Positions 279 to 2,334 of a DNA stretch of 64,000 nucleotides are shown piece by piece. Numbering within the stretch: the first letter of the stretch is position 1; each line of letters starts with the position of its first letter. Below the pieces are notes generated by a model that worked only from the letters and a program-made list of their open reading frames with translations, did no database searches and was not told the origin of the DNA. A program made the position numbers and the translations under genes. The stretch comes from an uncultured Veillonellaceae bacterium (GTDB lineage: Bacteria > Bacillota > Negativicutes > Selenomonadales > Selenomonadaceae), in NCBI GenBank assembly GCA_900314825.1, contig OMWS01000004.1, forward strand, positions 1 through 64,000. Direction: 5' to 3'.

Positions 279-308
279 TTGACAAACATTTCGGTTTAGG
301 TGTATAGT
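279..308 (+). promoter_or_regulatory. Sigma-70-type promoter for the prfH leader
   Basis: A perfect -35 box TTGACA (279-284) is followed after 18 bases by TATAGT (303-308). Transcription would start near 315, giving an untranslated region of about 40 bases before the mini-ORF at 354 and about 200 bases before prfH. Confidence 0.65.
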
Positions 309-341
309 CTCTGTATTGTTATTGTTTGATAGTTTGAAAGG

Positions 342-421
342 AGGGTGATCGTCATGAAACGGAATCAGAAGCGACAGTCGTCGCAGAATTATCGTTATCG
401 TTCGGGGGAGCCGATCACCCT
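342..421 (+). promoter_or_regulatory. Long-range inverted repeat masking the mini-ORF ribosome site
   Basis: AGGGTGATCG (342-351) is an exact reverse complement of CGATCACCCT (412-421). The left arm contains the Shine-Dalgarno sequence of the mini-ORF; the right arm lies near its end and is followed by a T-rich stretch (424-428). A small 5-bp hairpin GCGAC/GTCGC (371-384) sits in the loop. The arrangement suggests a translation-sensitive switch in front of prfH-rtcB. The structure is seen in the sequence; the regulatory role is inferred. Confidence 0.5.
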
Positions 422-437
422 GCTTTTTGCTTGGTAG
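354..437 (+). CDS. 27-residue putative leader peptide upstream of prfH
   Basis: An ATG at 354 follows a strong AGGAGGG ribosome site and opens 27 codons ending in TAG (435-437). The peptide begins MKRNQKRQSSQ, is rich in Arg, Gln and Ser, and ends SGEPITLLFAW. It is preceded by its own promoter and ends 77 bases before the prfH start. Its ribosome site and its last codons form the two arms of a 10-bp inverted repeat, which points to a leader peptide rather than a free protein. The prfH frame is -1 relative to this ORF and stays open back through it, so a frameshifted fusion is a less likely alternative. Confidence 0.5.
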   Translation: MKRNQKRQSSQNYRYRSGEPITLLFAW

Positions 438-514
438 GAGAATGCCAGGTATTGTCATGGTGGTCTGTTCCTCTGTGGTTCGGCGCGGTTGCGCGGGAAG
501 GCAGAGGATTTTTT

Positions 515-1114
515 GTGTCCAATTTTTTCGTACAGATCAGTTCCGGCCATGGGCCGGCGGAGTGTGAGCGCGGCGTATGGCTTTTGGCGCGGGCGCTCCT
601 CAGGGAGTTTCCGGAGCTCTCGGTGAAGGCGGAGCGCACGGGGCGCTGGCCGCAGACGGCGAGCTCGGTGACGCTTGTCGGGAATGGCGATTATCGTGCG
701 CTGGCGGGGACGGTCGAGTGGATCGCAAAGAGCCCATTCCGCCCGCATCATCGGCGGCGAAATTGGTTTCTTGATGTCACGGTGCTGCCGGAGATGCAGC
801 CGATCCCGGATGCTCCAGAGTATGCTGTCGCCTATTTTCACTGTGGCGGCAATGGCGGGCAGAATGTCAACAAGGTCGAGACGGGCGTGCGCTTGACGCA
901 TATGCCGACGGGGCTCACGGTGACGGCGACGGAGGAGCGCACGCAGCAGGCGAACCGCCGCCATGCACTGGCGAAACTCCAAGCGCTGTTGGCCGAGGGG
1001 CGGCAGGCGCAGCAGCGCCAGCAGGACGAACGGCTTTGGAGGAGCCATCAGCGGCTCGAGCGCGGGAATCCCATCCGCGTATATGAAGGAGCCGCATTTA
1101 CACGCAAGAAATGA
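515..1114 (+). CDS. prfH: Peptide chain release factor-like protein PrfH
   Basis: This is a 199-residue class I release-factor relative. It lacks the codon-recognition domain of RF1/RF2 but keeps the catalytic loop, seen as GGNGGQNVNKVETGVRLTH with the GGQ motif near residue 118. The N-terminal QISSGHGPAE segment is typical of PrfH. The GTG at 515 is chosen because AGAGG lies 7 bases upstream and the protein then begins just before the family's first conserved motif; the frame is open further upstream. PrfH is known to release peptides from ribosomes cleaved in the 16S decoding centre. It overlaps the GAAATGA junction with rtcB, so the pair is translationally coupled. Confidence 0.9.
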   Translation: MSNFFVQISSGHGPAECERGVWLLARALLREFPELSVKAERTGRWPQTASSVTLVGNGDYRALAGTVEWIAKSPFRPHHRRRNWFLDVTVLPEMQPIPDAPEYAVAYFHCGGNGGQNVNKVETGVRLTHMPTGLTVTATEERTQQANRRHALAKLQALLAEGRQAQQRQQDERLWRSHQRLERGNPIRVYEGAAFTRKK

Positions 1115-1125
1115 AAGGATATCAC

Positions 1126-2334
1126 ATGATTACCATCAAGGGAACGTATAACGAAGCGATTGTCTATGCGGACAGTCTCGAAGCATCGGCCGAGGGCTTG
1201 CTGAAGGCCGTTTGCGATGCGGAGTATCTCAAGGACTGCAAGATCCGCATCATGCCGGATGTCCATGCGGGCAAGGGCTGCACGATCGGCACGACGATGA
1301 CGATCCAGGACAAGGTCGTGCCGAATATGGTCGGCGTTGATATCGGCTGCGGCATGGAGACCGTGAAGCTCAAGGACAAGCGCATCGACTTCACGAAGCT
1401 TGACAGCGTGATCCGCAAGTTTGTGCCGTGCGGAAGCATGATCCGCGAGGCGGGAAAAGAACACACCTTCGCACAGGACATCGATCTCACGCAGCTGCGC
1501 TGTGAGGGCTGCGGTATCGCGCGTGCGTATCGCAGCATCGGCACGCTGGGCGGCGGTAATCATTTCATCGAAGTGGACAAGGACGATGATGGTGCGCTGT
1601 ATCTCGTCATCCATTCCGGCAGCCGCCATCTCGGCGTCGAGGTCGCGGAGTATTATCAGCAGGCAGGTTATGAGGCGCTCGTCGGGGCGGACAAGGCGAG
1701 CTTGCAAGCATTGATTGCGCAGCTGAAAGCGGAGGGGCGCGAGCAGGAGATCGCCGCGGCGATGAAGGAGCGCAAGACAGCCATCCGTACGCAGGAGATT
1801 CCAAAGGAATTGGCGTATGTGTCCGGGCAGTTGTTCGATGATTACATCCATGACATGAAGCTCACGCAGCAGTTTGCGATGCTGAACCGCAAGGCGATGG
1901 CGCAGACGATCCTCAAGCACATGAAGCTCAAGCCCATCGAGTCGTTTACGACGATCCACAACTACATCGACACGGACGCGATGATCCTCCGAAAGGGCGC
2001 GGTCTCTGCGCGCAAAGGTGAAAAGCTTTTGATTCCCATCAATATGCGCGATGGCAGCCTCATCTGCGTCGGCAAAGGCAATGACGATTGGAATCAGTCC
2101 GCGCCGCATGGCGCCGGCCGGCTCATGAGCCGCAAGGAAGCGAAGAACACGATTCCGATGAAGGAGTACAAAGCGGCGATGAAGGGCATCTTCACGACGT
2201 GCGTCAGCAAGAGCACAGTCGATGAAGCGCCGATGGCGTACAAGTCCATGGACGACATCGTGCAGCATATCGAGCCGACGGCGGAGATCGCGAAAGTGAT
2301 CCAGCCCGTGTATAATTTCAAAGCAGAAGAATAA
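1126..2334 (+). CDS. rtcB: RNA-splicing ligase RtcB (RtcB2 type, paired with PrfH)
   Basis: This is a 402-residue GTP- and Mn-dependent RNA ligase that joins 2',3'-cyclic phosphate and 5'-OH ends. Visible family motifs are MPDVHAGKGCTIG, VDIGCGM with the metal-binding Cys, GGGNHFIEV, HSGSRHLG and the guanylylation site SAPHGAGRLMSR. The ATG at 1126 follows GAAAGGA by 7 bases; an ATG at 1111 overlapping the prfH stop is also possible. Next to prfH it is expected to reseal cleaved 16S rRNA after PrfH has rescued the ribosome. No archease, RtcA or RtcR gene is adjacent. The 3' flank carries a palindromic repeat rather than a clear terminator. Confidence 0.92.
   Translation: MITIKGTYNEAIVYADSLEASAEGLLKAVCDAEYLKDCKIRIMPDVHAGKGCTIGTTMTIQDKVVPNMVGVDIGCGMETVKLKDKRIDFTKLDSVIRKFVPCGSMIREAGKEHTFAQDIDLTQLRCEGCGIARAYRSIGTLGGGNHFIEVDKDDDGALYLVIHSGSRHLGVEVAEYYQQAGYEALVGADKASLQALIAQLKAEGREQEIAAAMKERKTAIRTQEIPKELAYVSGQLFDDYIHDMKLTQQFAMLNRKAMAQTILKHMKLKPIESFTTIHNYIDTDAMILRKGAVSARKGEKLLIPINMRDGSLICVGKGNDDWNQSAPHGAGRLMSRKEAKNTIPMKEYKAAMKGIFTTCVSKSTVDEAPMAYKSMDDIVQHIEPTAEIAKVIQPVYNFKAEE

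Follow-up and report, generated by a model that had tools for sequence, protein, structure and literature searches.

The prfH-rtcB operon and its leader

The DNA analyzed here is a single 64-kb stretch, referred to below as the window, and the operon and its leader lie on the + strand. At 515-1114 the window carries prfH, encoding peptide chain release factor H. The second gene of the operon, rtcB (1126-2334), encodes an RNA ligase. The PrfH protein (199 aa) matches TIGR03072 over its full length (152.5 bits, E 1e-44) as well as the RF-1 domain PF00472, contains the GGQ motif, lacks domain 1 and has its RtcB partner encoded by the next gene. The TIGR03072 score is below the curated cut-off of 166.65 bits and far above the protein's own scores against the RF1 and RF2 models; the protein is a divergent PrfH just under the NCBIfam cut-off. 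The ligase, the sole RtcB in the genome, matches PF01139 at 205 bits (cut-off 27). Its score against TIGR03073 (release_rtcB, RtcB2) is 105 bits, below the curated cut-off of 271.8, which places it outside the E. coli RtcB2 subfamily. Since the PrfH is divergent and the ligase is not of the RtcB2 type, the colicin E3 repair function is one that we infer for this pair. In this genus, prfH precedes rtcB (window 515-2334 and locus L002), whereas most of the other loci examined have the opposite order. A 2006 survey describes the rtcB-type gene as always lying upstream of prfH (PMC1586002).

Upstream of prfH is a putative sigma-70-type promoter (279-308), with TTGACA at 279-284, an 18-nt spacer and TATAGT at 303-308. 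It matches the consensus at 11 of 12 positions, and one such promoter was found where 0.5 was expected in shuffles. The promoter is followed by a leader ORF of 27 codons, MKRNQKRQSSQNYRYRSGEPITLLFAW, which runs from the ATG at 354 to the TAG at 437 (354-437). The extended ribosome-binding site of this ORF, AAAGGAGGGTGATC (337-350), is predicted to pair at -22.5 kcal/mol with a generic Bacillota 16S 3' end, which was assumed for the ribosome-site energies, the 16S 3' end not being found in this assembly. With the same tail, the ribosome site of prfH is weaker (-12.9 kcal/mol). The leader site is the sole occurrence of GGAGG(N)TGATC in the window and the strongest extended ribosome site within it, and it would be expected to capture initiating ribosomes well. 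The prfH start codon, a GTG at 515, lies 77 bases past the leader stop and, when aligned, falls on the ATG with which PrfH of the congener starts. A search for protein relatives of the leader peptide found none, which leaves the mini-ORF an orphan; the weak matches in the peptide search were pieces of unrelated frames.

The leader ribosome site and the last codons of the ORF are joined by an inverted repeat, with AGGGTGATCG at 342-351 and its exact reverse complement, CGATCACCCT, at 412-421. When 309-440 was dinucleotide-shuffled 5000 times, 15 of the shuffles (0.3%) contained an exact 10-bp inverted repeat, as did 29 of 5000 shuffles of 309-514. The window holds 26 exact 10-bp inverted repeats with loops of 3-80 bases, and three of them, the leader repeat included, cover a ribosome-site-like motif before a + strand start codon. 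(All background counts for repeats, hairpins and segments refer to the 64-kb window.) Folded as a whole, the paired region 336-428 has an energy of -35.4 kcal/mol (z -3.6), and none of 500 shuffles was as stable. An earlier note on this DNA had described the good promoter, the 27-codon mini-ORF with its strong ribosome site, the 10-bp repeat and the prfH start 77 bases beyond, and each was confirmed at its place. Because the parts are where they were described, the repeat is so rare in shuffles and few window repeats are placed in this way, the observation is real and improbable as chance alone.

Two elements were absent from the earlier note: a terminator-like hairpin before prfH, and a further pairing, 403-423 with 454-475, that is treated in the next section. 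The hairpin, at 469-508, UCCUCUGU...GCAGAGGA, with arms 469-476 and 501-508, is directly followed by TTTTTT (509-514). The element (469-514) has a folding energy of -23.7 kcal/mol (z -4.2), equalled by none of 500 shuffles, and the hairpin is among the more stable of the 27 hairpin-plus-T5 sites in the window. Its arm 501-508 contains the ribosome site of prfH, GCAGAGGA, and the GTG of prfH stands immediately behind the U run. No longer gene on the + strand ends shortly upstream, so the hairpin is not apparently the end of another gene. Located between promoter and gene, it is shaped like an intrinsic terminator and is predicted to act as one. A smaller hairpin at 428-451 (428-436 with 443-451; -11.0 kcal/mol), which encloses the leader stop codon, forms with a probability of 0.94-0.99 where no ribosome covers it.

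Alternative pairings and ribosome position

Four segments of the leader can pair in alternative ways. Segment 1 (342-351), which overlaps the leader ribosome site, is the 5' arm of the repeat and has a pairing probability of 0.99 in the free RNA. The 3' arm of the repeat (412-421) lies in segment 2 (403-423), which also provides the 5' arm of a second, mutually exclusive pairing with segment 3 (454-476). We refer to the pairing 2:3 as the antiterminator and to 1:2 as the anti-antiterminator. Within segment 3, 454-475 is the 3' arm of the antiterminator and 469-476 the 5' arm of the terminator-like hairpin (3:4). The antiterminator consists of the pairs 403-411/467-475, 413-419/459-465 and 421-423/454-457, stacked on the small hairpin 428-436/443-451, which caps it. 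Thus segment 2 is common to 1:2 and 2:3, and segment 3 to 2:3 and 3:4. The 2:3 duplex has an energy of -26.3 kcal/mol, which was equalled in 3 of 2000 shuffles; among real segments of the window, 0.34% pair as strongly with segment 2 and 0.11% (27 of 25,590) with segment 3. In its modelled pairings, the 5' region looks like an attenuator of four segments, the first of them being the start region of the leader itself.

The leader was folded with a ribosome footprint set on each codon in turn. This is a crude footprint model, and the scan was post hoc, having been run after the region was inspected. In the free leader RNA, 1:2 and the terminator each had a probability of 0.99, and the prfH ribosome site was 1% open. 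With the ribosome on codons 1, 2 and 3, the probability of the terminator fell to 0.12, 0.04 and 0.12, respectively, and the openness of the prfH ribosome site rose to 0.30-0.45. The terminator is lost at these codons because the antiterminator forms and excludes 3:4. With the ribosome on codons 4-28, the terminator was restored (0.94-0.99). When the ribosome was kept at the leader start and the transcript length was varied, the probability of the antiterminator was 0.95-0.99 at lengths 478-504 and 0.7-0.9 at lengths 520-600. In this model, the antiterminator (403-423/454-475) forms before segment 4 is made and is partial at 508-514.

The pattern was compared with controls that had unchanged arms and shuffled spacers; of 1000 such sequences, 529 still formed both hairpins and were scored. 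Eight of the 529 lost the terminator (<0.5) with the ribosome on codon 1, and one lost it (<0.2) at all three codons. When the footprint edges were set between -12 and -20 and between +13 and +19, the switch was kept at codons 1-2, and wide footprints extended it to codon 5. The Andronescu 2007 energies reproduced the codon-dependent pattern. By the footprint scan and the structure-preserving controls, the position of the ribosome decides the fold in silico. The earlier note had proposed that the folding of the RNA, and with it the expression of prfH, depends on how the leader is being translated. That proposal stands in part: a ribosome on the early codons converts the modelled OFF state to ON, as in only 8 of 529 controls, while the hairpin that had been taken to mask the ribosome site would serve as the anti-antiterminator, and the output would be the terminator and ribosome-site hairpin that had gone unnoticed.

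Codons 14-16 of the leader (393-401) encode RYR. The peptide motif +X+ is known for macrolide-dependent arrest, and RYR has this form. A modelled ribosome at these codons leaves the terminator intact, and macrolide arrest there was rejected as the trigger.

The energies also set limits on the switch. In RNA ending at 508-514, the terminator is favored at equilibrium (0.66-0.83) despite a ribosome at the leader start, and it is still favored there with the Andronescu 2007 energies. With the ribosome at the start, the antiterminator is dominant up to accessible lengths of 504-506 and again from 520. The barrier from antiterminator to terminator is just 4-8.5 kcal/mol, and that from a formed 1:2 to the antiterminator is about 22 kcal/mol. 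RNA polymerase shields the last 8-9 bases of the transcript, so that the accessible length at release would be about 506, where the antiterminator is still ahead (0.81-0.94). Given the preference for the terminator at 508-514 and the low barrier towards it, antitermination may be partial. In the model, we expect it to be incomplete and the effect through the opening of the prfH ribosome site to be large; this opening may matter more than antitermination. The OFF state appears firmer than the ON state, since leaving 1:2 would cost about 22 kcal/mol. The antiterminator and 1:2 have about equal stability in free RNA of 485-495 bases, and the OFF state therefore depends on 1:2 forming first.

Distribution of the leader and comparison with known systems

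PrfH is patchily distributed. It was found in 8 of 189 genomes of the family and in 2 of 7 of the genus, and the two PrfH-bearing members are the only ones of the genus with any RtcB. Among the loci examined, the order with prfH first is confined to the genome of the window and genome G004 of the same genus (PrfH 72% and RtcB 76% identical). In G004, the 5' region of prfH has no leader; it is short, unrelated and unstructured (z 0.25), with a plain ribosome site. The leader DNA is absent from the other 188 of the 189 family genomes searched, and nothing like it was found in the plasmids, phages or viral contigs searched. A pattern search for the same arms across the family gave one unrelated site only. 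Rfam gave no match to the leader even at E 5. Elsewhere in the class and phylum, the gene upstream of prfH, usually rtcB, lies -11 to +20 bases from it, which leaves no room for a leader at most loci and resembles the arrangement reported in 2006 (PMC1586002). A terminator-like hairpin before prfH at locus L026 follows an apparent EF-G gene; it was taken as the terminator of that gene and rejected as a leader.

The earlier note had counted a lack of conservation in close relatives against its proposal. The leader is indeed not conserved, in a comparison that is thin, with one comparable operon at 72% PrfH identity. Because attenuators reportedly vary widely and evolve fast (PMC2965389), we weigh the missing conservation in these sequences as a moderate negative for the switch.

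The closest likeness in design is with the leader of B. subtilis vmlR, an ABC-F resistance factor, whose attenuator design is supported by experiment (PMC9226507). In both leaders, by prediction for that of prfH, a short uORF lies within an anti-antiterminator hairpin, the antiterminator is tipped by a small hairpin, an intrinsic terminator is present and the ribosome site of the gene carries an extra lock. The vmlR leader is induced when a ribosome stalls on the start of the uORF (PMC9226507), and a counterpart of this is predicted for the prfH leader. The vmlR uORF, however, has 3 codons and a ribosome site outside the hairpin, whereas that of the prfH leader has 27 codons spanning both arms and its ribosome site in an arm. 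In addition, vmlR has separate terminator and ribosome-site hairpins where the prfH leader has one hairpin for both, and vmlR protects from a drug, whereas prfH-rtcB would rescue ribosomes and repair rRNA. By its modelled folds, the prfH leader would work like that of vmlR; no relation between the two by sequence or covariance was seen.

Other systems share some of these features. The E. coli toiL uORF upstream of topAI is a general sensor of stalled ribosomes, the start codon included, that refolds a downstream ribosome site (PMC12121999). It differs in acting by translation repression plus Rho and in responding to stalls along its whole length, whereas the prfH leader is predicted to be ON at codons 1-3 and to use an intrinsic terminator. 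Attenuators of the trp/his type likewise have four segments with the alternatives 1:2, 2:3 and 3:4, and terminate both without translation and with full translation. Unlike them, the prfH leader lacks a run of control codons, and with the start region as segment 1 it would read the failure to leave the start. The B. subtilis yxjB (rlmAII) leader also has a leader peptide, a terminator and a ribosome-site hairpin before a gene acting on rRNA, but it responds to tylosin stalling, and its gene protects rRNA by methylation (PMC6851288). The E. coli rtcB2-prfH operon resembles the present one in combining PrfH with an RtcB-type ligase, and differs in that rtcB comes first and translation is coupled, whereas here prfH comes first with its own leader; no attenuator is reported for it in the available parts of the two sources (PMC9223846, PMC1586002).

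At six Selenomonadaceae loci (L016, L018, L019, L028, L030 and L031), an extra gene of about 170-215 codons, with a product ending in LWD, lies between rtcB and prfH.

Proposed mechanism, signal and alternatives

On the modelled folds, the prfH-rtcB 5' region of this one species is probably a ribosome-mediated attenuator, that is, a translation-controlled switch. By default, 1:2 would form between the leader ribosome site and the end of the ORF, and segment 3 would be available for 3:4, which would end transcription at 509-514 and, in read-through RNA, also hide the prfH ribosome site. The leader is presumably translated, judging from its sequence. A ribosome in the middle of the ORF would allow 1:2 to re-form, a ribosome late in the ORF would cover segment 2, and both would leave the switch OFF. 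An initiated ribosome held at about codons 1-3 would cover segment 1 and not segment 2; the freed segment 2 would pair with segment 3, so that prfH-rtcB would be transcribed and the prfH ribosome site opened.

The natural signal that we propose is a ribosome that has been cut in its decoding centre; such a ribosome can still initiate and would halt within a few codons. PrfH-RtcB2 gives E. coli protection from colicin E3, whose cut in 16S rRNA falls between A1493 and G1494 (PMC9223846). In E3-cleaved ribosomes, initiation is little impaired, the first peptide bond (dipeptide) forms 15-fold more slowly, and translation halts almost completely after a few codons (PMC2615495). Damage sensing is consistent with this biochemistry, as the predicted ON codons are where such ribosomes would be expected to stop. 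We tentatively suggest, as a plausible reading held with some reserve, that the leader senses decoding-centre damage in cis: ribosomes with cut 16S rRNA would initiate the leader, fail early and induce their own rescue and re-sealing. If so, the substrate of the repair pathway would be its own inducer, damaged ribosomes reporting themselves by simple feedback, and the vmlR type of logic would extend from drug resistance to rRNA repair. No account of what turns on PrfH-RtcB modules was found in the literature examined.

Drugs that trap ribosomes on the start codon would induce the switch as well, and since they would give an identical signal, specificity for damage is something we infer. The same switch might instead be tuned to drugs such as pleuromutilins, lincosamides and tetracycline-like compounds, which stop ribosomes on start codons or early in elongation, with prfH-rtcB as a general translation-stress operon. 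The structural need, a ribosome on codons 1-3, is identical, and there are precedents: the vmlR, cplR and vga(A) leaders answer to start-codon-stalling drugs (PMC12121999, PMC9226507), and toiL answers to tetracycline and retapamulin at its own start codon (PMC12121999). We consider this unlikely. The known function of PrfH-RtcB2 is protection against 16S cleavage, and it did not protect against colicins E5 and D, which target tRNA (PMC9223846); a role in drug resistance was not found in the literature examined.

A fixed low expression of prfH seems similarly doubtful. Here, 469-508 would be a partial terminator or a mask on the ribosome site, the mini-ORF and repeat would be incidental or lower the leader's own translation, and nothing would switch. 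That no leader element is conserved and that the equilibrium shifts little at 508-514 would agree with this. The antiterminator complementarity, however, is rare in controls, and a strong ribosome site in 1:2 together with a 2:3 alternative is unlikely by accident. We think it still less probable that the structures are coincidental in a region of 59% GC, with an untranslated mini-ORF and a hairpin that is no terminator. Although this is a single sequence and the scan was made after the region had been inspected, three distinct features, which occur at about 0.1-1.5% apiece among controls, lie between a promoter with 11 of 12 consensus positions and the gene start, and the strongest extended ribosome site of the window is the leader's. 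A -1 frameshift at the TTT codon 426-428 of the leader, yielding an N-terminally extended PrfH, was rejected as most improbable for want of a canonical slippery heptamer: the prfH frame has no stop between 431 and 515, but 28 open codons are common by chance, and the homologues begin at the position equivalent to 515.

Two further observations concern the surroundings of the operon. The contig starts with a repeat of 98-99 bp (1-99) that contigs C105, C49 and C108 also carry at their ends. Between this repeat and the prfH promoter lies a truncated ORF (51-206) ending in IDPDCKYSDKGYLPDWAFMEAYINSLPYSDKIKE and a stop codon; together they suggest an insertion element or an assembly break adjoining the operon. 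The palindromic repeat CTCCGCCCCTTCGGGGCACCTCCCCCAAGGGGGGGAGG is very abundant, occurring in dozens of copies across this and other genomes of the genus, and one copy lies at 2423-2480.
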